Below are positions 43,202 to 54,834 of a stretch of 64,000 nt of DNA, in pieces. A model generated the notes under the pieces. It had not been told where the DNA came from. It did not search any database and saw nothing but the letters and a program-made list of their open reading frames with translations. How positions within the stretch are numbered: the stretch's first letter is position 1; every line of letters starts with the position of its first letter. The position numbers and the translations under genes were made by a program. Source of the stretch: a virus; the IMG/VR virus record IMGVR_UViG_3300044640_001495, positions 248,001-312,000 of that record. One strand, given 5' to 3'.

Positions 43202-44398
43202 ATGACAAAATTTTCTTGTGTAGAAGATCTATTAGTTGAATTTTATAATCAGACACTGTTTGATATAACAATCTTGCAAGATCAAGATCGTGCTGCCATA
43301 CATGGATTCTATAATACACTAGATCTCGGTAATCAATTAACTGCTAATCAAGGTGGTTTTTTACTGAAAATTCTGTCCAAGTACAAAACGTTTGCCAACA
43401 GTCTCGGCATAGATTATGGCACGTTGATAGACACACCTATATGGAAAACCACCTTTAGAAAATTAGATCTTACTAGAAAAATATTTGTAGAACAGTCCGA
43501 AGAGGGTGAGATCACAGTGTGTTTAAAATTTCCATATGCATTGAAAGAAGCCTTCGAAAAAGAATTTCATACTGAAAATACACCATACAGTTCCAACACC
43601 TGGGACAGTGATAGAAAACTGCGTGTGCTAAATGTTTACAAATATAATATCATACAGCTTGAAGAATTTTGCAGAAAGCATGACTTTGAACTTGATGACA
43701 CTTTTCTCACGTTGGTTGACACAGTGGCAGAGATTTGGGATCAACAGGATCAAATTATCCCCTGTGCATATATCACAGCTGGTGAATTAGTGCTGTGTAA
43801 TGCCACTGAAGATGCAGAACTATTTTATCAAAAACACAAACAGGATGATATAGACCAAAATATATTCTTGGCCAAAAGCATGGGGTATCCTACTCGATTT
43901 GATCGACCAATAGAGACCAAACTTGAGGTTATCTGTTCATCTAAATCAAGATTTTTTTGGATGAAATCTAATAGAGATTTCTTTGACCTTTACAAGCAGG
44001 TCGATGGGATTGTCTGTGTGTTAATTGATCGCAATACTCAAGACAGCATTGATTGGTTGCAAAAATTTGTCGAGTCTGCTGATATTGCCGGTATACCAAG
44101 ATCAGATATCAGGGTGTGTTTTCGAGACCCCACTGAAAAGAAATCTCAGCTAAATGCATGGATCAAAGACAACAATCTTGGTGGTAAAGTTCAAGAAGGT
44201 AAAATACTTATATTCTTTCATAAACCCCCTAAGTGGTTGTTTAAAGACAACATTGATGTTAAAATAGTTGTAACAAATAGCTACACACCAATCAACGAAC
44301 CCACTTCATCTGTGTGGTTAGATACTCATCCTTGTGTGTGTTATTTGAGTGACATAAAACCAACTCCTACAAGGAAACAGAAAATTGTCAGTTTGTAA
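43202..44398 (+). CDS. Unknown protein coupled to UvsW
   Basis: 398 residues, soluble, alpha/beta. The N-terminal part has a LTANQGGFLLKILSKYKTFA segment (about 52-71), and the C-terminal half alternates hydrophobic strands (KIVVTNSYTPINEP, WLDTHPCVCYLSD). Its end overlaps the uvsW start by 14 nt, so the two are probably made together. A role in branched-DNA handling with UvsW is an inference from position only. No family recognised. Confidence 0.75.
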   Translation: MTKFSCVEDLLVEFYNQTLFDITILQDQDRAAIHGFYNTLDLGNQLTANQGGFLLKILSKYKTFANSLGIDYGTLIDTPIWKTTFRKLDLTRKIFVEQSEEGEITVCLKFPYALKEAFEKEFHTENTPYSSNTWDSDRKLRVLNVYKYNIIQLEEFCRKHDFELDDTFLTLVDTVAEIWDQQDQIIPCAYITAGELVLCNATEDAELFYQKHKQDDIDQNIFLAKSMGYPTRFDRPIETKLEVICSSKSRFFWMKSNRDFFDLYKQVDGIVCVLIDRNTQDSIDWLQKFVESADIAGIPRSDIRVCFRDPTEKKSQLNAWIKDNNLGGKVQEGKILIFFHKPPKWLFKDNIDVKIVVTNSYTPINEPTSSVWLDTHPCVCYLSDIKPTPTRKQKIVSL

Positions 44399-45839
44399 AC
44401 TAGTGATTCGAGATGAAGTTAATATCAAGTTGGAAGGACTCAGTGTTGAAACACGGCGTAAAATTGTTAACAAATTGAAATTTGATCTACCATATGCCCG
44501 ACACATGCCATCATACAAACTGGGTCGATGGGATGGTACAAAAACCTATTTTAGCATCGGTGGTACTGGTTATCTTGCACACCTTGATGTTATATTGCCC
44601 ATCGTAGAAGAAGCTGGATATGAAATAGATATTGAAGATCAACGACATCACACCAAGATAGAATTTGCTCCTATAACAGAAAACTACTGGGCAGACAAGG
44701 GCAAGACATGGCCCAAGGGGCATCCTGAAGCAGGAACTCCTATTGTACTTCGTGATTATCAATACGACGTTGTTAACAAGTTTTTAGAAAACTCACAATC
44801 ATTACAGGAGGTAGCTACAGGTGCAGGCAAAACAATTACTACAGCGACATTGTCGCATCTTTGTGAGGCGTATGGGCGTACGATGGTTATTGTTCCGAAC
44901 AAATCTCTTGTTGTACAAACTGAAGAAGACTACAAAAACCTTGGACTAGATGTGGGTGTATACTTCGGCGACAGAAAAGAATTAGGTAAGACGCACACTA
45001 TCTGCACCTGGCAAAGTCTTAATGTACTCGATAAGAAAAGTTACGATGACGAAGTGTTATCGTTAGCTGAATTTACTGCTGGAGTATCTGCAATTATTAT
45101 CGATGAAGTTCATCAGGCCAAGGCAGAAGTGTTAACGAAATTGTTGACACAGAACTTTAGCAACTGTGCTATACGATGGGGACTCACGGGAACTATTCCC
45201 AAAGAAGCATGGGAATTTCAAGGCATCCTTGCCAGCATCGGACCAGTTATCAATCAGGTATCGGCACATGACCTACAGGAGAAGGGCGTTCTAGCACAAT
45301 TACAAATTAACATTTTGCAAACCAACGAAGTACAGGAATTTAGAAGTTTTGCAGACGAATATGCATTTTTGGTCACCGACGATTCTAGAATTACTTGGAT
45401 GGCAAATAAAATACAATCACTAGCTTTAACAGGAAATACTCTAGTGTTAATCAACAGAATTGACACTGGGAATAAATTGATTGAGCGCATACCGGAAGCT
45501 GTATTCGTTAGTGGTGGAATGAAGCTAGGCGATAGGAAAGAAGAATATGACGAGATTAAAACAAGTGATGGTAAGATTATTGTGGCGACTTATGGTGTGG
45601 CCGCTGTGGGTATTAATATCCCTAGGATTTTTAATTTGGTTCTTGTGGAGCCCGGAAAGAGCTTTGTCCGAGTTATACAAAGTATTGGGCGAGGCATTAG
45701 AAAAGCGCAAGACAAAGACCACGTTGAAATCTGGGACATAACTTCACAGTGCAAATATTCCAAACGACATCTCACTGAACGAAAGAAATTTTACAAAGAG
45801 GCCAAGTACCCCTTTACAATTACCAAGGTATCCATATGA
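44385..45839 (+). CDS. uvsW: UvsW superfamily 2 helicase
   Basis: 484 residues. The Q-like LRDYQYDVVNKF (122-133), Walker A ATGAGKT (144-150), DEVH box (240-243), GLTGT (motif III), ATYGVAAVGINIP and QSIGRGIRK (motifs V and VI) are complete. UvsW unwinds R-loops and branched DNA and switches replication from origin- to recombination-dependent mode. The start is a TTG at 44385, supported by AAGGA 9 nt upstream; a GTG at 44403 is the alternative. Confidence 0.93.
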   Translation: MSVCKLVIRDEVNIKLEGLSVETRRKIVNKLKFDLPYARHMPSYKLGRWDGTKTYFSIGGTGYLAHLDVILPIVEEAGYEIDIEDQRHHTKIEFAPITENYWADKGKTWPKGHPEAGTPIVLRDYQYDVVNKFLENSQSLQEVATGAGKTITTATLSHLCEAYGRTMVIVPNKSLVVQTEEDYKNLGLDVGVYFGDRKELGKTHTICTWQSLNVLDKKSYDDEVLSLAEFTAGVSAIIIDEVHQAKAEVLTKLLTQNFSNCAIRWGLTGTIPKEAWEFQGILASIGPVINQVSAHDLQEKGVLAQLQINILQTNEVQEFRSFADEYAFLVTDDSRITWMANKIQSLALTGNTLVLINRIDTGNKLIERIPEAVFVSGGMKLGDRKEEYDEIKTSDGKIIVATYGVAAVGINIPRIFNLVLVEPGKSFVRVIQSIGRGIRKAQDKDHVEIWDITSQCKYSKRHLTERKKFYKEAKYPFTITKVSI

Positions 45840-46343: not shown

Positions 46344-46700
46344 ATGAAAGCAGGAAAAGTTTGGGGACAGACAGAATTATTAGAAGCCAATGGTGTATTG
46401 GAATTTCACCGCATTGAAGCCAAAAAAGGCGGCACATGTTCCAAGCATAAACATCAATACAAATGGAATGGCTTCTTTGTAGAAAAAGGTGAAATGATCA
46501 TTCGTGTTTGGAAAAACAACTATGATCTAGTTGATGAAACACTTTTACGAGCCGGAGAGTATACAAAGGTAGCACCCGGAGAATATCATCAATTTGAAGC
46601 AGTAGCTGATTGTGTTGCTTTTGAATTATATTGGGCAGAGTTTGATCACGATGATATAGAGCGTGAAACTGTAGGGTACGCAAAAAATGGGAAATCTTAA
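46344..46700 (+). CDS. Cupin-fold protein
   Basis: 118 residues. Cupin motif 1 is visible as CSKHKHQYKWNGFFVEKGEMII (about 31-52, with His34 and His36 and Glu47) and motif 2 as PGEYHQFEA (about 78-86, His82), so metal-binding residues are present. Small cupins act as sugar isomerases, dioxygenases or sensors; the role here is unclear. It overlaps the next gene by 14 nt. Confidence 0.78.
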   Translation: MKAGKVWGQTELLEANGVLEFHRIEAKKGGTCSKHKHQYKWNGFFVEKGEMIIRVWKNNYDLVDETLLRAGEYTKVAPGEYHQFEAVADCVAFELYWAEFDHDDIERETVGYAKNGKS

Positions 46701-46974: not shown

Positions 46975-47440
46975 ACACATAGACCTCTTTAAAGAAATAA
47001 TTCCAGCAGTTGATCTTGGAATGAAAGACTTATGGGATGCCGCCACTGATGATGGAAGGAAAGAGATCAAAGGAGATTTCTGGAATCTTAATAGATATAT
47101 CAGCAGTGTTAAAAGCAGTGATCGGTCGCTTCAAGAGCATTTTGTTTTGACCGTAAATGAATACTACAATAAAAATTGGAATAATATTCAAAAACATCCC
47201 AAACTGGTTTGGCAGTCGTTGTGTGCCTGTAGTAGAGGCACAGGTCAAACCTATTTTCATGAATGGATTCCTCTTAAAAAACAAAAAAATAAAAAAGTAG
47301 ATTTTCTAGCAGAGCTGTTTCCGAACATGAAAATGACAGATGTTGAAACTCTAGCAGCAATAACTACAGACAAAGAAATAAAAGAATATGCTAAGGACCT
47401 TGGTTGGGATAAGAAGCAAATTGCAGACATTAAATTATAA
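46964..47440 (+). CDS. Unknown replication-cluster protein
   Basis: 158 residues. It has a helical N-terminus, a HPKLVWQSLCACSRGTGQTYFHEWIPLKK segment (about 79-107), and a C-terminal MTDVETLAAITTDKEIKEYAKDLGWDKK helix-turn-helix-like end. In T4-like genomes this neighbourhood often carries clamp-loader (gp62) or helicase-loader (gp59) genes, but I see no firm match. It overlaps the zinc-finger gene by 53 nt if that uses its ATG. Confidence 0.68.
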   Translation: MANKHIDLFKEIIPAVDLGMKDLWDAATDDGRKEIKGDFWNLNRYISSVKSSDRSLQEHFVLTVNEYYNKNWNNIQKHPKLVWQSLCACSRGTGQTYFHEWIPLKKQKNKKVDFLAELFPNMKMTDVETLAAITTDKEIKEYAKDLGWDKKQIADIKL

Positions 47441-48107
47441 GTGCGAATACTGCGGCAAAGAATTTGTCAAAGAAAAAACTTTGGCTGTGCATGTCTGTGA
47501 ACAGAAACGTAGACACATGAGCAAGAATGAAAGACATGTTCAGGCAGGCCTGTTAACATTCCAACGATTTTATGAACTGGCACAGCGAGGTTCTAGTCCC
47601 AAGACCTTTGATGATTTTGCAGGTAGTTCATTCTACAATGCCATGGTAAAGTTTGGTAGTTTTCTTGTAAACACTGCTCCTATCTATCCAGAGAGATTTA
47701 TTGACTTTGTGGTCAAGAGTGGAGTAAAACTAGATCATTGGTGCAGAGATGAACTTTATGATACCTATATCAGTGAGCTGATAAAAATAGAACCAGCAGA
47801 CGGTGCAATACAGAGAACCATCAAAACCATGATGGAATGGAGTGATGCTAACTCAGCCCCCTGGGAACACTACTTTCAATACGTTAATCTCAACCGCGCT
47901 ACGCACGATATCAAGGAAGGATTGATTAGTCCGTGGATGGTGTTAAATAGCAAGTCGGGGAAGGAAATGTTAAAGCGTATGAATGATGAGCAACTAGATA
48001 TAGTTGGTCCAATTATTGATCCTAACTATTGGTCCAGACGTTTTAAATCTTTACCCGCAGATGTAGAGTTAGTTAAAGACGTCATCAAGGAGGCGAAAAT
48101 ATTATGA
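47388..48107 (+). CDS. Zinc-finger protein of the replication cluster
   Basis: 239 residues from the ATG at 47388; a TTG at 47421 would shorten the overlap and give about 228. The finger CEYCGKEF...LAVHVCEQKRRH occupies about 19-42 (C2HC). The body is helical with MVKFGSFLVNTAPIYPERFIDFVVKSG near 85-111 and HDIKEGLISPWMVLNS. It might be a helicase loader or ssDNA-associated factor, given its place between UvsW and gp61, but this is only positional. Confidence 0.72.
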   Translation: MLRTLVGIRSKLQTLNYKCEYCGKEFVKEKTLAVHVCEQKRRHMSKNERHVQAGLLTFQRFYELAQRGSSPKTFDDFAGSSFYNAMVKFGSFLVNTAPIYPERFIDFVVKSGVKLDHWCRDELYDTYISELIKIEPADGAIQRTIKTMMEWSDANSAPWEHYFQYVNLNRATHDIKEGLISPWMVLNSKSGKEMLKRMNDEQLDIVGPIIDPNYWSRRFKSLPADVELVKDVIKEAKIL

Positions 48108-48352
48108 TTTATAAGAAAAGAAAAGAAGAAGCAAGCGCACCACCTGTAGAAGACGAAGAAGTAGAGTTAGCACACAACGAAGAACATATATCTAGAGACG
48201 ATATAGACATTGAGATAGTGATTGCGGAAGATTCCGACGATGTATTTGTAAAATTTACGGGGTTCAATGATCGCGAAGATTCTGAAGAGTATGCACAGTT
48301 TCTAGCAGATACATTGCCTTTGCTATTGTTTGAAACCACGAGATTGAACTAA
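48104..48352 (+). CDS. Small acidic protein
   Basis: 82 residues, rich in Asp/Glu (IEIVIAEDSDDVFVKF) with a C-terminal EEYAQFLADTLPLLLFE helix. Coupled by ATGA to the gene before and by TAATG to the DnaE-like gene after it. It may be an accessory subunit of that protein. No family recognised. Confidence 0.68.
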   Translation: MIYKKRKEEASAPPVEDEEVELAHNEEHISRDDIDIEIVIAEDSDDVFVKFTGFNDREDSEEYAQFLADTLPLLLFETTRLN

Positions 48353-48930
48353 TGCCGGATATTGACATAGACTTTGTAGACCGCGATCAAGCATTAAAAT
48401 TGTTTGAACACATCCCTGCCAGTAGACTAGACAATCAACGATTGGTCAAGCATAACACAGGTGTATATCTACACGCTGTTCCTGTAGATGCAGTTAGTGG
48501 TCTATGTCAACTTCCCTATGAACAGGCAGAAGAAGAAAAGTATTTTAAAATAGATTTTCTCAATGTTGGAATTTATAAAGGTGTTCGTGATGAAGAACAT
48601 CTAGTTTATCTAATGAATCAGGAGCCACTATGGGACTTACTTCAACAAGACGAATTTGTAAATCTGTTATTTCATTTGAACGGGCATGGAGATATAATCC
48701 GGAAGACCCTACCGACTTCCGTGGAACAATTATCTGCCGTCCTAGCTATGATCCGCCCAGCCAAACGTTATCTGATTGGGAAGCCTTGGACGACGATCAT
48801 GACGGAAGTATGGACCAAGCCAGAGACTGGTGATTACTACTTTAAGAAGAGTCATGCCACTGCCTATGCTGTTGCTATCGTTGTACAGATGAATTTAATC
48901 TGTGAACAGATTAGTTATGGATTCCAATGA
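48352..48930 (+). CDS. Miniature DnaE-like (DNA polymerase III alpha-derived) protein
   Basis: 192 residues. It contains, in the order found in DnaE, the PDIDIDF motif at 2-8 (Asp3, Asp5 and Asp7, matching the catalytic PDFDVDF), KIDFLNV at 66-72 (matching the KFDFLGL with the third catalytic Asp), LAMIRPA at 131-137 (matching FRPGP) and KKSHATAYA at 165-173 (matching NKSHAAAYA). Bacterial DnaE has about 1160 residues; fingers, PHP and most of the palm are absent here. It is probably not a polymerase by itself. It lies between replication genes, suggesting a host-replisome mimic, a primer-terminus binder or a relic under selection. Confidence 0.72.
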   Translation: MPDIDIDFVDRDQALKLFEHIPASRLDNQRLVKHNTGVYLHAVPVDAVSGLCQLPYEQAEEEKYFKIDFLNVGIYKGVRDEEHLVYLMNQEPLWDLLQQDEFVNLLFHLNGHGDIIRKTLPTSVEQLSAVLAMIRPAKRYLIGKPWTTIMTEVWTKPETGDYYFKKSHATAYAVAIVVQMNLICEQISYGFQ

Positions 48931-49487
48931 ACTTTGATGCCTTTAGCAGTGCTCAGATACAGAGCAAGATTTGGCTCGTGGATCGATTAGAGCGTACACT
49001 TGAAGAACATAGACCTATTGAGGACGGTTATCGTATATGGATTTTAGCGGGATGGTATGCCTTGGCTAATTTTTTAATCCGTACTAGAAATAAAATACCT
49101 GTGCTGGAGGTCCGTAGCTTTGACCAAGATCCCGCATGTGAACCTATAGCAGAGGCCATCAACAATCTATGGGTCTATCGAGCTTGGGAATTCAAGGCAC
49201 ATACCGTTGACATCAATCTGTTGGAATATAAACCAAGACCAGATGTGATTATAAATTCCAGTGTTGAGCACATGACTTCGAGTCAATGGTACGCAAATAT
49301 CCCAGCGGGCACAGTGGTATGTCTACAGGCCAGCGATATGCTAGATGAGGATCATGTTAATTCTATGTCCAGTATCAAGGACCTAATGCTAAAGTACCCC
49401 ATGAGCGAACAGCTCTACGATGGCATTAAAAGATTTGAATTTGAAGACAAGGCCTTTAATCGAGTAATGATTATTGGCATCAAGTAG
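48927..49487 (+). CDS. Methyltransferase-like protein of the replication cluster
   Basis: 186 residues. The opening GYRIWILAGWYALANFLIRT, VRSFDQDPACEPIAEAIN (about 66-84, like motif II with an acidic end) and VIINSSVEHM (motif IV-like) indicate a class I SAM methyltransferase fold. A clear glycine-rich motif I is replaced by AGWYA, so activity is uncertain. It overlaps the DnaE-like gene by ATGA. Confidence 0.65.
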   Translation: MNFDAFSSAQIQSKIWLVDRLERTLEEHRPIEDGYRIWILAGWYALANFLIRTRNKIPVLEVRSFDQDPACEPIAEAINNLWVYRAWEFKAHTVDINLLEYKPRPDVIINSSVEHMTSSQWYANIPAGTVVCLQASDMLDEDHVNSMSSIKDLMLKYPMSEQLYDGIKRFEFEDKAFNRVMIIGIK

Positions 49488-49851
49488 CCCGTCTAACCAA
49501 TGTGATTGATTTGCGCTTGATACGTTTTACAATGATATTATTAAGGCTGGTACAGGGACCAAATAACACCTTGACATCTTTGGTTGAAAAGTTTTTGATG
49601 GTGTATCGGAAAGCATAAATTTCTTTAAGTAAAAATATATTAATAGGAATCTGTCTATTTGATTCCCACCACCAAACTTCTCCTAGTTCTAAGAATTTTG
49701 CTTTTTCTTCTTCAGTTTTGATGTGTGCATAGTCATACATGCTGGTGATAGCAGAATCTTGGTTGATTATGATACCCACATATTCCTGATCAACGTGGGT
49801 TACAACACTGATAAAAGGAAAGTTTTCTTGTAAGTTATGTGTGATTCTCAT
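49480..49851 (-). CDS. Small protein of unknown function
   Basis: 123 residues, alpha/beta, with a VVTHVDQEYVGIIINQDSAITSMYDY pattern (about 16-41) and a basic C-terminus (KRIKRKSITLVRRAT). It is convergent with and overlaps the methyltransferase-like gene by 8 nt, and is divergent from the next virion gene. No family recognised. Confidence 0.65.
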   Translation of the reverse strand: MRITHNLQENFPFISVVTHVDQEYVGIIINQDSAITSMYDYAHIKTEEEKAKFLELGEVWWWESNRQIPINIFLLKEIYAFRYTIKNFSTKDVKVLFGPCTSLNNIIVKRIKRKSITLVRRAT

Positions 49852-50705: not shown

Positions 50706-51728
50706 ATGACTCTTGTTCTTGATAAGTTTAGAACTCTCCTTCCTTCAAAATTAAAGACCAGTCCCAGCGGCTGGATTAGTTTCAATGCTCCTTGCTGTCA
50801 GCATAGAGGTCATGCACACGACACTAGAAAGCGTGGCGGTATTATTATTACAGACAGTGTTGTCTATAATTGTTTCAATTGCAAATATTCTACAGGTTGG
50901 AAACCCGGCTCCCCAATCACTGCTAAATTTAAAAGTCTTTGTCAATGGTTAGGCGCCAATGACGACGATATCAAGCAGTTGATATTTGAAGCGATGAAAA
51001 CCGAATCTACAGAATATCAACCAGAAGCATTTGTAGAAAAACCCACATTCACAGAAAAGCCCTTGCCCGAAGGTGCATTACCTTTAATTGAATGGTTGGA
51101 TTCTCAATTGACTGATGTTCAAGAACAACAGTTGATCAAGGCGGTAGAATATGTGGTAGGTAGAGGCTACGATCCGTTGAGCGATCACTTCTTCTGGAGT
51201 CCAGAAGCAGGCTATGCAGATCGTGTCATCATTGCTTTCAAATATCTTGGAAAAATTGTAGGCAACACAGCACGTAAAGTCACAGACGGAAAGCCCAAGT
51301 ATTTGTCCGATCAACATCCATTCTTTGTGTTCAACGTTGACGAACAATGTGAGGCACATAGATATCTGTTTGTGGTAGAAGGCCCATTTGACGCTATCAG
51401 CGTCGGCGGGGTGGCCTTGCTCACTAATGAAATCTCCGACCAACAGGCTCGGATAATTAACAGTATAGGCAAAGAAGTGATTGTGATCCCAGATCAAGAT
51501 AAAGCAGGCACGTTTCTAATAGATCAAGCTAAAGAACTAGGTTGGTCAATTGCATTTCCAACTTGGGATGACTCTGTGAAAGATTGTGCAGACGCTGTGA
51601 AAAAATATGGCAAACTATTTGTTGTTGTTGATGCTATAAAAACAGCAACGGCAAATCCTGCAAAGATTGAAATTGAAAAAAGAAAGATGCTAAACAAGAT
51701 AGCAGTATTGGAGAATCAAAATGATTAA
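50706..51728 (+). CDS. gp61: DNA primase (gp61)
   Basis: 340 residues, as in T4 (342). The N-terminal zinc finger uses Cys30/31, His33 or His36, Cys56 and Cys59 (CFNC). The TOPRIM domain has Glu225 in VVEGPFDA and Asp263/Asp265 in IPDQDKAG. It makes RNA primers for lagging-strand synthesis together with helicase gp41, encoded three genes downstream. A sigma70-type promoter directly precedes it. Confidence 0.93.
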   Translation: MTLVLDKFRTLLPSKLKTSPSGWISFNAPCCQHRGHAHDTRKRGGIIITDSVVYNCFNCKYSTGWKPGSPITAKFKSLCQWLGANDDDIKQLIFEAMKTESTEYQPEAFVEKPTFTEKPLPEGALPLIEWLDSQLTDVQEQQLIKAVEYVVGRGYDPLSDHFFWSPEAGYADRVIIAFKYLGKIVGNTARKVTDGKPKYLSDQHPFFVFNVDEQCEAHRYLFVVEGPFDAISVGGVALLTNEISDQQARIINSIGKEVIVIPDQDKAGTFLIDQAKELGWSIAFPTWDDSVKDCADAVKKYGKLFVVVDAIKTATANPAKIEIEKRKMLNKIAVLENQND

Positions 51729-51837
51729 AAAAATATTAGATTTTATTTTATATCCGTGGCACAAGTATCAAGAACGCAAGGCATGGAAAAAACGTTTAGA
51801 AGAATTGCGTAAACGTGATCCATTTATCTACAAATGA
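51721..51837 (+). CDS. 38-residue basic protein after gp61
   Basis: A complete small gene: MIKKILDFILYPWHKY..., then a basic helix ending KRDPFIYK. A hydrophobic N-terminal stretch (ILDFILYPW) and a Lys/Arg-rich helix suggest peripheral membrane association. It overlaps gp61 by 8 nt and the next gene by ATGA, which supports real translation. Similar tiny proteins ending in DPFIYK occur in marine T4-like phages as far as I recall. Confidence 0.72.
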   Translation: MIKKILDFILYPWHKYQERKAWKKRLEELRKRDPFIYK

Positions 51838-52775
51838 TCATGTGGGGGGTAAATGCCCTTAATCATGGAAGTAGTCTTGCTGTATTCAAGGACGGCAGTC
51901 TGTGGTCCAATCAAGTGGGTTCTTCGGATGAATTAGACAGCAAAATAATTACCGATGCCCTGCATCTTGGAGCACCAGATCGTATCTTTTGGTACGAACG
52001 ACCCTGGATAAAGAAAGCAAGACAGGCATACGCAGGACAGTGGCATCGTGCCTTAGATATGAAGGTACTTCCACGTAGATATATGAAAGCGCAACATTAT
52101 GCTCCGATCACTTATACACCGCATCATGGTAGTCATGCAGCCGCAGGCTACTATACCAGTCCTTTTAATCATTGTGCTATTGTGGTACTCGACGCCATAG
52201 GTGAATTTGAATGTGCTACCATATGGGAAGGCCTACACGGAGAAATGCGCAAAGTGTGGAGCAGAAGTTATCCTAATAGTCTAGGGCTATTCTATAGCGC
52301 ATTTACTAACTTGTTAGGAATGACTCCAATACAAGACGAATATCTATTGCAACAAATGGCTAAGAAGGGCGACCCACATCGTTATAAACATGATGTTCAC
52401 AAATACATGAGCGGACTATTAATCTCTGGTAAGAACATGCACAAGGGCATCCTCGATTGGCCGCATGACATTGGAAATGAACAAGACCGTTACGATATTG
52501 CTGCCGCAGTTCAACGAGTGTTTGAAGATCAAATCCGTATGGTTATGCTAGAAGCTAAGAAATTAGTCAACACTGACTGTCTAGTTTATATGGGCGGTTG
52601 TGCTATGAATTCAGATGCTAATAAACGATTTGTGGAACCTGCATTTAAGTACAGGTGGAGTTTACCTAATCCAGGAGATCCATCTAGTTCTATCGGAGCA
52701 GTCTTGTATCACACTAAACAACGAGAGTGGAAATACAACTTTGGTGTTGCAAAGCACCTAGCAATTAGTGTATAA
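51834..52775 (+). CDS. Truncated carbamoyltransferase (N-terminal domain only)
   Basis: 313 residues of the NodU/CmcH family. It keeps the start (NALNHGSSLAVF), the metal site region (YTPHHGSHAAAGYYTSPF, about 94-111), a VVLDAIGEFE motif and MGGCAMNSDANK near 255-266. It stops where the full-length enzyme at 140 enters its C-terminal transferase domain (no NGPRALGxRS motif). It may be a regulatory or half enzyme, or need a partner; no stop-codon damage is seen, so it is a stable short form. Overlaps the previous mini-gene. Confidence 0.85.
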   Translation: MIMWGVNALNHGSSLAVFKDGSLWSNQVGSSDELDSKIITDALHLGAPDRIFWYERPWIKKARQAYAGQWHRALDMKVLPRRYMKAQHYAPITYTPHHGSHAAAGYYTSPFNHCAIVVLDAIGEFECATIWEGLHGEMRKVWSRSYPNSLGLFYSAFTNLLGMTPIQDEYLLQQMAKKGDPHRYKHDVHKYMSGLLISGKNMHKGILDWPHDIGNEQDRYDIAAAVQRVFEDQIRMVMLEAKKLVNTDCLVYMGGCAMNSDANKRFVEPAFKYRWSLPNPGDPSSSIGAVLYHTKQREWKYNFGVAKHLAISV

Positions 52776-52776
52776 T
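52747..52776 (+). promoter_or_regulatory. Sigma70-like promoter, leaderless geometry
   Basis: TTGCAA, 18 nt, TATAAT. The -10 box ends 7 nt before the ATG at 52784; no ribosome binding site. The -35 is weak. Confidence 0.55.
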
Positions 52777-52783
52777 AAAATAT

Positions 52784-53401
52784 ATGTTTTATTATAATAA
52801 GAAATATCAAACAGGTGATCAATGGCTAATTGATACAGAATATACCAAGTATCAAGACCTATTGCCACTGGTTGAATCAAATCCCAATACTGAATACAGC
52901 AACGAAACTGTGGCGTTTAATGCTAGACAGTACCCATTGTGGAGTGATCCTGTGGTTGCACAGACAGTGAGACACAAACAATTTCTTGATAACTATGTTC
53001 AACACCCCGCTTGGGAAGAAGCAACACATGGTATATTCGAATGGACCAAGCGACGATTAAAAAGAAATAAAATTGACCTAAATTTTGTGCCAACTATTTC
53101 ATGGAGCATGGAATATGCCGCAGGCGGCTGGCAAAGCATGCATACACACGACAACGATTGTGTTACACAGATATTCTATTTAGATGGAGAAATAAACCAA
53201 GACCCAAATGTTAGTGCAAAAGAAAATGCATGGGGGTCTATGTATGCTTTTTTAACTAAAGGCGATAAACCATTATACAAATCATTTAGCAGTTGGGCAG
53301 GCCGTTGCATAATACTTCGTGGCGATATTTTCCACGGTGTTTATCCTATAAAAACATTGCCACGCAGAACAATTATTATGGATTATAAAGTGATACGATG
53401 A
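52784..53401 (+). CDS. 2-oxoglutarate/Fe(II) oxygenase-like protein
   Basis: 205 residues. GGWQSMHTHDND near 113-124 supplies a His-x-Asp (HDND) iron site, RGDIFHGVYPI near 179-189 gives the distal His, and RRTIIMDY near 193-200 gives the Arg for 2-oxoglutarate. This layout matches small phage 2OG oxygenases. The substrate is unknown. It lies between the truncated carbamoyltransferase and gp41, overlapping gp41 by ATGA. Confidence 0.78.
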   Translation: MFYYNKKYQTGDQWLIDTEYTKYQDLLPLVESNPNTEYSNETVAFNARQYPLWSDPVVAQTVRHKQFLDNYVQHPAWEEATHGIFEWTKRRLKRNKIDLNFVPTISWSMEYAAGGWQSMHTHDNDCVTQIFYLDGEINQDPNVSAKENAWGSMYAFLTKGDKPLYKSFSSWAGRCIILRGDIFHGVYPIKTLPRRTIIMDYKVIR

Positions 53402-54834
53402 TAAAGACCTACGACTACGAAGTACAAAAATTATATCTTGAACTCATGCTGGCAGATGCCGAAGTATTTGTGCGCTGCCAAGGTATATTTGATCATTCAT
53501 TGTTTGACCGAAAACTACAGGATGCAGCAGAATTTATTCATGAATATGCCAAGGGCTATAATGTACTGCCAGACTATGAAATGGTCAATGCATCGTGCCG
53601 CACTGATATGAAACGTCCAGAAGATCTTAAAGAAGGTCACATGGACTGGTTCATGGATGAGTTTGAGAAGTTTACTCAACACAAGGCTCTTGAACGTGCA
53701 ATTATACAATCAGCTGATCTATTAGAAAAACATGACTATGGTGCAGTGGAAGTATTAATTAAAGAAGCTGTACAGATTGGACTTGCCCGAGATATGGGCA
53801 CAGACTACTTTGCTGATCCTCGTGGCCGATTGATGGGCATCAAAGACAAGAATGGACAGGTGAGCACAGGTTGGCCCTGTATGGATCGTAAGTTATTTGG
53901 TGGATTTAATCGTGGTGAACTAAACATCTTTGCCGGTGGATCCGGCGCAGGTAAAAGTTTGTTCTTGGCTAACTTGGGTGTGAACTGGGCATTGATGGGT
54001 CTTAATGTGGTCTATCTAACTCTTGAACTTTCAGAAGCACTGGTCAGTATGCGTATTGATGCAATGATAACAGGAACATCAACTAAAGACATTTTTAAAG
54101 ATCTAGATGATGTTGAAATGAAAGTTAAAATGATCGGCAAGAAGTCGGGCATGCTACAGATAAAATACATGCCCTCAGGCAAGACTGCCAACGACATTCG
54201 TGCATACCTGAAAGAATATGAAATTAAAGTAGGCAAAAAAGTAGACGTACTGTTAGTTGACTACTTAGACTTGTTAATGCCTGTAAGTAAAAAGATCAGC
54301 CCGGCTGACTTATTCATCAAAGACAAGTATGTGTCAGAAGAACTTCGTAATCTAGCAGTGGAGAAGAACTGTGTGTTCGTTACTGCGGCACAGTTAAATC
54401 GTGGTGCTGTAGAAGAAGTTGAATTTGATCACAGTCACATCTCGGGTGGTTTGAGCAAGATTCAAACGGCAGATAATGTGTTTGGTATCTTTACCAGTCG
54501 AGCTATGCGTGAACGTGGTCGCTATCAATTGCAGTTGATGAAGACACGGTCAAGTAGTGGGGTAGGCATGAAGATTGATCTAGAGTTCAATCTAGAAAGT
54601 TTAAGAATCAGTGACCTACCCGAGGACGAACAAGAAAATAACGGTGCAACAAGCAGAGGTAGTTCTAGTATAATTGAGTCAATCAAGGCTCGTAGTACTA
54701 TTCAAGGACGCATCGATGAAGATGGTGTTATACAAGATCCAACTCAAGGTGTTGGTCTAGGCAAGGTTCGTGCCAATGTTGAATCAAGTAAGATGCGTGA
54801 GATTTTAAACAAGCAGTTTGGCGATGAAGACTAA
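53398..54834 (+). CDS. gp41: Replicative DNA helicase gp41 (DnaB type)
   Basis: 478 residues, as in T4 (475). Walker A GGSGAGKSL is at 180-188, NVVYLTLELSEALVSMRIDAM is the H1a segment, Walker B VDVLLVDYLDLL is near 279-290, and AAQLNRGAVEEVEFDHSHISGG is the H3 region. It unwinds the fork and forms the primosome with gp61. The C-terminus is variable and polar. Confidence 0.95.
   Translation: MIKTYDYEVQKLYLELMLADAEVFVRCQGIFDHSLFDRKLQDAAEFIHEYAKGYNVLPDYEMVNASCRTDMKRPEDLKEGHMDWFMDEFEKFTQHKALERAIIQSADLLEKHDYGAVEVLIKEAVQIGLARDMGTDYFADPRGRLMGIKDKNGQVSTGWPCMDRKLFGGFNRGELNIFAGGSGAGKSLFLANLGVNWALMGLNVVYLTLELSEALVSMRIDAMITGTSTKDIFKDLDDVEMKVKMIGKKSGMLQIKYMPSGKTANDIRAYLKEYEIKVGKKVDVLLVDYLDLLMPVSKKISPADLFIKDKYVSEELRNLAVEKNCVFVTAAQLNRGAVEEVEFDHSHISGGLSKIQTADNVFGIFTSRAMRERGRYQLQLMKTRSSSGVGMKIDLEFNLESLRISDLPEDEQENNGATSRGSSSIIESIKARSTIQGRIDEDGVIQDPTQGVGLGKVRANVESSKMREILNKQFGDED

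Follow-up and report, generated by a model that had tools for sequence, protein, structure and literature searches.

The open reading frame (ORF) at 48352-48930 of the window, by which we mean the whole analysed stretch of 64,000 nucleotides (positions 248001-312000 of IMGVR_UViG_3300044640_001495, the 353,123-base record of a giant bacterial virus, G000 below), encodes 192 amino acids (aa) that we take, with a probability of about 0.72, to be one half, the C-terminal one, of a minimal C-family DNA polymerase (Pol III alpha/DnaE type) that is split in trans. We call this protein the B half; its putative partner, the A half, is encoded 176 kilobases (kb) away in the same virus record. That the two together synthesize DNA, and for what purpose, we infer from homology, conservation, predicted structure and gene context. 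The ORF had been singled out in an earlier note as a miniature DnaE-like protein; it is present and reads as claimed there, in a reduced DnaE palm and fingers protein whose predicted fold matches Pol III alpha. It is not the complete miniature polymerase that the name suggested: it holds half a palm only, and the GRGS segment lies on the distant gene. Feature coordinates are those of the window unless marked G000, and papers are cited by PMC number.

Two halves matching Pol III alpha

The B half keeps the motifs PDIDIDF, KIDFLNV, LAMIRPA and KKSHATAYA in the order in which DnaE has their equivalents, as had been noticed from the sequence. Three catalytic Asp residues are described as absolutely conserved in C-family polymerases (D401, D403 and D555 of Escherichia coli alpha), and D405 as conserved in DnaE and replaced by Asn in PolC (PMC3919608). 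The B half has all of them, as D3, D5, D68 and, for D405, D7, each in 151/151 distinct B sequences. These were collected among the matches listed from phage records (63) and viral contigs (151 distinct B from 173 frames, and 125 distinct A from 145); all our conservation counts refer to distinct sequences and include the window's own. The earlier note had left open whether D3/D5 or D5/D7 was the first catalytic pair: D3/D5 and D68 stand as the equivalents of D401/D403 and D555, and the D5/D7 pairing falls, D7 being D405 (PMC3919608). Its statement that the regions between motifs are cut down sixfold is right for the whole length (192 versus 1160 aa for the E. coli chain) and not for the spacers, which measure 73 versus 176 residues (about 2.4-fold) and 23 versus 111 (about 4.8-fold).

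Database searches gave the same assignment. PHROG 11778, annotated 'DNA polymerase', matches the B half at E 6e-64; PHROG 405, a full-length phage polymerase, matches it less strongly but still above chance (E 1e-5), as does the NCBIfam model polc at 4e-4, far under that model's curated cut-off. A Pfam search of the B protein gave no match; the Pfam Pol III finger model PF17657 reaches E <= 0.01 in 12 of 84 aligned B relatives and has no match anywhere in the virus record. When a profile of the 84 relatives was run against all sequences of the PDB, nine distinct matches were returned at E <= 1, all nine of them Pol III alpha (best E-value 0.0028), and the alignment fell in three blocks on E. 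coli alpha: residues 399-420, 596-641, with R135-P136-A-K138 at its end, and 752-767.

The A half emerged when the virus record was searched from end to end with Pfam DNA_pol3_alpha: the model matched at one place, a 155-aa ORF that belongs to PHROG 11127 (E 8e-39). The same Pfam model matches 64/64 members of the A alignment, and 9/9 PDB matches of the A profile at E <= 1 are again Pol III alpha. The A profile aligns to E. coli alpha 320-392, with the first block of B starting at 399; the A half ends with the segment of DnaE, from the GRGS loop to '..EEFF', that immediately precedes PDIDIDF in DnaE.

Both halves were modelled separately with AlphaFold, using the query together with 83 B and 63 A representatives that share less than 80% identity (L293, a short A sequence, was omitted and L081 replaced by the identical L084), with pLDDT 92.5 for B and 87.9 for A. 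The top PDB matches of both models in Foldseek are Pol III alpha. In VIA-align, B was superposed over nearly its full length on E. coli alpha 401-784 (2hnh; Z 8.3, 184 residues, root-mean-square deviation (rmsd) 4.0) and on Taq 461-841 (3e0d; Z 9.5, 189 residues, rmsd 4.0), while A residues 58-155 were placed on E. coli 278-395 (2hnh; Z 9.6, 96 residues, rmsd 2.6) and residues 61-155 on Taq 303-457 (3e0d; Z 7.2, 93 residues, rmsd 2.6). The top 13 rows for B (Z 6.1-9.5, next row 3.7) and the top 14 for A (Z 7.2-11.8, next row 2.8; rmsd 2.2-2.9 A among them) are DNA polymerases; rows below Z 4 (METTL15, FosB and others for B, VP35 for A) were taken as background. The two models thus cover adjoining parts of solved Pol III alpha without overlap, and each predicted half, taken singly, has the Pol beta-like palm fold seen there. 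Neither of the two outcomes named beforehand as fatal, a fold without a palm or homologues without the acidic residues, was encountered.

Conservation, pairing and genomic context

Eleven residues are unchanged in all 151 distinct B sequences, whose identity to the window protein goes as low as 33%: D3, D5, D7, H34, G37, K66, D68, R135, P136, K138 and H168. In the NKSH-like motif, K165 is kept in 149/151 and Y172 in 148/151. Of the 125 distinct A sequences, 123 show the G-R-G-S loop; contig ends truncate the remaining two (L124 and L131), which cannot show it. The median ratio of nonsynonymous to synonymous substitution rates (dN/dS), taken over pairs of 80-97% identity with dS 0.1-2, is 0.081 for B (114 pairs) and 0.114 for A (155 pairs); selection on the B half is strongly purifying.

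Among the phage records listed (the best 60 of 63 for B and the best 60 of 354 for A, several of them duplicate records of one phage), 59 of the 60 with B also have A: 57 through the A listing, and RAS14 and CM1 through a profile search. The sole exception, PP728206 (109 kb, unverified), has about one third the length of its Klebsiella relatives. Both halves occur in 12 of 13 named records examined for A, separated in those 12 by about 14 to 224 kb; in the E. coli phage 121Q they are gene 56 (A) and gene 16 (B). The split point is identical in 16/16 paired genomes (CM1, L144/L155, was left out of this comparison, being identical to RAS14), and a search of 320 loci, with 145 A and 173 B frames, turned up no natural A-B fusion. 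Over the 16 pairs the A-B distance correlation has an r of 0.81, with 0/5000 permutations as high; common descent of the phages would by itself predict such a correlation as well, and the value is compatible with mere co-inheritance. A family B DNA polymerase accompanies the pair: it is an 892-aa frame in the window's virus record, and was found in 12/12 named phage records tested and 22/25 records overall, the three without a match being contigs of 47-95 kb. B-half genes also lie on at least two cellular-genome contigs, L321 (3.7 kb) and L322 (29.7 kb), both from metagenome-assembled genomes named as archaea (Natrialbaceae, Pacearchaeota); these are probably phage contigs binned by mistake.

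Both halves lie near replication genes in most records examined. In 9/11 annotated named records the 3 kb downstream of B include an annotated primase and/or replicative helicase; on the upstream side 4/11 have an annotated helicase of UvsW or DEAD/DEAH type, and the other records are unannotated there or have a P-loop NTPase. In RaK2, XacN1, CBB and the window's virus, the A half is followed at a short distance downstream by a gp44-type clamp loader. Near B, XacN1 has an annotated DNA polymerase III epsilon subunit; one is also reported for CBB (PMC5259590), and both alpha and epsilon subunits are reported for Atu_ph07 (PMC6102473). In the window's virus record RNase_T matched only below its cut-off, in a 193-aa frame that is an exonuclease by PHROG and lies 86 kb from A, and an epsilon partner was kept out of our model on that account. 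In Atu_ph07 itself the RefSeq B gene, FDI40_gp074 (NC_042013.1, L132:2992-3072), starts 27 codons past its likely start, so that the annotated protein is without the DIDID metal-binding motif.

Features of the split polymerase genes and of their surroundings (window coordinates unless marked; occurrence is counted in B loci with room for the gene)
Feature	Coordinates	Strand	Basis or occurrence
B half, PHROG 11778: palm strands binding Mg2+ and reduced fingers (predicted)	48352..48930	+	homology, conservation, AlphaFold model
D3-x-D5-x-D7 = E. coli D401/D403 (metal ligands) and D405	48358..48372	+	each 151/151; numbering PMC3919608
K66-I-D68; D68 = D555 of E. coli alpha	48547..48555	+	K66, D68 each 151/151
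R135-P136-A-K138 = RPG motif of DnaE fingers	48754..48765	+	R135, P136, K138 each 151/151
K165-K-S-H168-A-T-A-Y172 = NKSH motif of DnaE fingers	48844..48867	+	aligned to E. coli 752-767; H168 151/151
A half, 155 aa, PHROG 11127	G000:119779-120246 (= L081:1285-1752), outside window	+	Pfam DNA_pol3_alpha, PHROG
A half with head-morphogenesis/GroES-like protein (PHROG 931) and gp44-type clamp loader	G000:119779-122586 (L328:7780-10587)		together as in RaK2, CBB
UvsW-like DNA helicase, upstream end of cluster	44385..45839	+	PHROG 16; annotated uvsW/UvsW-like in RaK2, 121Q
Upstream neighbour, PHROG 11058 (function unknown), sub-threshold zinc-finger matches	47388..48107	+	homologue in 153/163
Small acidic ORF, 82 aa	48104..48352	+	homologue in 70/171
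ORF of 186 aa overlapping B-half stop codon	48927-49487		homologue in only 9/162
Downstream neighbour on opposite strand, PHROG 11637 (unknown function)	49480..49851	-	homologue in 159/161
DNA primase, same replication cluster	50706..51728	+	homologue in 131/143; annotated primase in named phages
DnaB-like (gp41-type) replicative helicase, same cluster	53398..54834	+	family match

The overlap coupling of the B gene to its neighbours, also pointed out in the earlier note, is there: its start overlaps the small acidic ORF by 1 base (TAATG) and its end overlaps the 186-aa ORF by 4 bases (ATGA). The description of the latter as methyltransferase-like gained no support, PHROG and Pfam searches with it giving no match. 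We considered this ORF as a partner of B and rejected it on its rarity and the lack of a family match; it is probably a lineage-specific insertion. The opposite-strand PHROG 11637 gene follows with a median gap of 3 bases, a strand switch of unusual constancy within a replication cluster. Primase and helicase are adjacent in several named relatives, unlike in the window, where two genes stand between them (51834-53401), one for a Nol-like carbamoyltransferase of PHROG 1601 and the other an ORF resembling 2OG-Fe(II) oxygenases. A small protein matching PHROG 7851 (cysteine dioxygenase) is also encoded inside the cluster, at 46344-46700.

Proposed activity and alternative explanations

We propose that the A and B polypeptides would associate non-covalently into a heterodimer that rebuilds one palm with fingers, and with it one C-family active site, in which the GRGS loop of A would hold the triphosphate of the incoming deoxynucleoside triphosphate, and B would hold two Mg2+ and face the template. 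Such a pair should act as a distributive, short-patch DNA polymerase, as is to be expected of an enzyme without thumb, PHP or HhH domains. It may be recruited by the T4-type primase, helicase or clamp-loader machinery of the phage, and its task may be to extend primers, fill gaps or take part in repair alongside the family B replicase. A more specific version, which we offer as a rather doubtful one, is that two unrelated polymerases share the labour: a thumb-less, trans-assembled C-family core of about 350 residues would extend primers or fill gaps at the primase/helicase complex and then hand over to the family B replicase, in a manner likened to the handover from Pol alpha to Pol delta/epsilon. 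A core of that size is perhaps near the smallest workable C-family polymerase.

Several observations weigh against the split polymerase. About 100 residues are absent from B between catalytic strand and fingers (E. coli 420-596), the place of the thumb, which in DnaE is described as lying between the catalytic palm strands (PMC12641269), and about 90 more are absent within the fingers by the profile alignment; deletions of this extent may leave too weak a grip on DNA for polymerization. The best Foldseek E-values are modest (6.6e-4 for B, 1.1e-2 for A), the rmsd of B is 3.3-4.4 A among its polymerase rows, and the values of both models are those of a remote relative. VIA-align placed A residues 1-57 on no polymerase, a region which it barely tested. 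Among 20 viral contigs with B (63-280 kb, chosen mainly for length from the first 80 B contigs, and all possibly fragments) A was found in only 4, and a contig of 280 kb is among the 16 without it. Primase or helicase neighbours were not seen within 3 kb of B in XacN1 and RAS14, and PA5oct has no clamp loader annotated beside A. A literature search, which included few subscription papers, found no experimental test of a split polymerase.

With the same deletions, the pair may instead transfer nucleotides to another substrate. The pair would then be a catalytic nucleotidyltransferase and not a template-dependent polymerase, acting for example on ends, tRNA, primers or proteins: catalytic residues are invariant, yet the pair has lost the thumb region and a large part of the fingers, C-family palms share their fold with Pol beta (PMC3919608), and non-polymerase nucleotidyltransferases are reported to have that fold too (PMC11646218). 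We nevertheless judge this unlikely, as R135, P136, K138 and H168 in the fingers vary no more than the metal ligands do and as A and B lie near replication genes in most records examined. Of the three guesses of the earlier note (a replisome mimic, a terminus-binding regulator or a minimal nucleotidyl-transfer domain), the last comes closest to what was found; the other two are disfavoured by the invariance of catalytic residues in both halves. A catalytically inactive mimic or inhibitor of host Pol III, binding the host clamp, tau or primer-template, would account for the recognizable likeness of B to bacterial alpha in a phage that has its own family B polymerase. Its residues are hard to explain in that case: the metal ligands of B are kept in 151/151 sequences and the triphosphate loop of A in all 123 that reach it, none of which a binding mimic would need, and we regard such a role as very improbable. 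Least credible is a decaying remnant of a captured dnaE, suggested by the large internal deletions and the splitting relative to DnaE and largely contradicted by conservation: dN/dS is about 0.1, active-site residues do not vary, and the split point is constant. Mimic and relic are both argued against by two far-separated halves that keep every catalytic residue.

Relation to known polymerases and significance

The proposed split C-family polymerase has a precedent in work by Iyer, Burroughs, Anantharaman and Aravind. In 2021 a 'split minimal Pol III alpha' was described, from sequence, for the group 2.2 jumbo phages (Iyer et al., Viruses 13:63, PMC7824862); the kind is therefore already described, and the window's virus adds a new case. 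As far as the available text of that paper goes, we found no essential difference from it other than that ours is a metagenome virus: distant genes, a family B polymerase in the same phage and, by searches for PHP and HhH, the lack of other Pol III alpha domains are common to both, and homologues of the two halves are present in Atu_ph07, which it places in group 2.2. Other genome papers also name Pol III proteins: the A half of CBB, identified as such in this analysis, was described as a truncated alpha (PMC5259590), Callisto is reported to have a 'DNA polymerase III (ORF111)' (PMC11079468), and AP-J-162 two 'DNA polymerase III subunits' (PMC11242549).

With bacterial DnaE the pair shares the equivalents of D401/D403/D405 and D555, the RPG-like and NKSH-like motifs, the GRGS loop of the partner, and the predicted folds. 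Unlike DnaE, of about 1160 aa, it consists of two polypeptides totalling 347 aa, and its B half is without a thumb. PHP and tandem HhH domains are described as nearly universal in bacterial C-family members (PMC3919608); searches for these two other Pol III alpha domains, PHP (PF02811) and HHH_6 (PF14579), found no match in the virus record while controls were positive, and for this reason we do not class the pair as an ordinary DnaE. Other phages have larger C-family polymerases (PHROG 405, BFVD) with a core homologous to A and B; they are single chains, of 463-1474 residues in the BFVD rows named as polymerases, whereas A and B are split and minimal.

New here are the conservation counts, the mapping of the split position on solved structures, and the gene contexts; the mapped invariant residues make the prediction of 2021 directly testable. 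If active, the pair would be a minimal C-family polymerase far under the 909-1213 residues of the polymerase chains aligned by VIA-align, would reveal what the core of a bacterial replicase needs, and would offer a natural two-piece system for reconstitution. It would also raise the question of why a phage that has a family B replicase keeps another polymerase, unrelated to it and encoded by two genes far apart.
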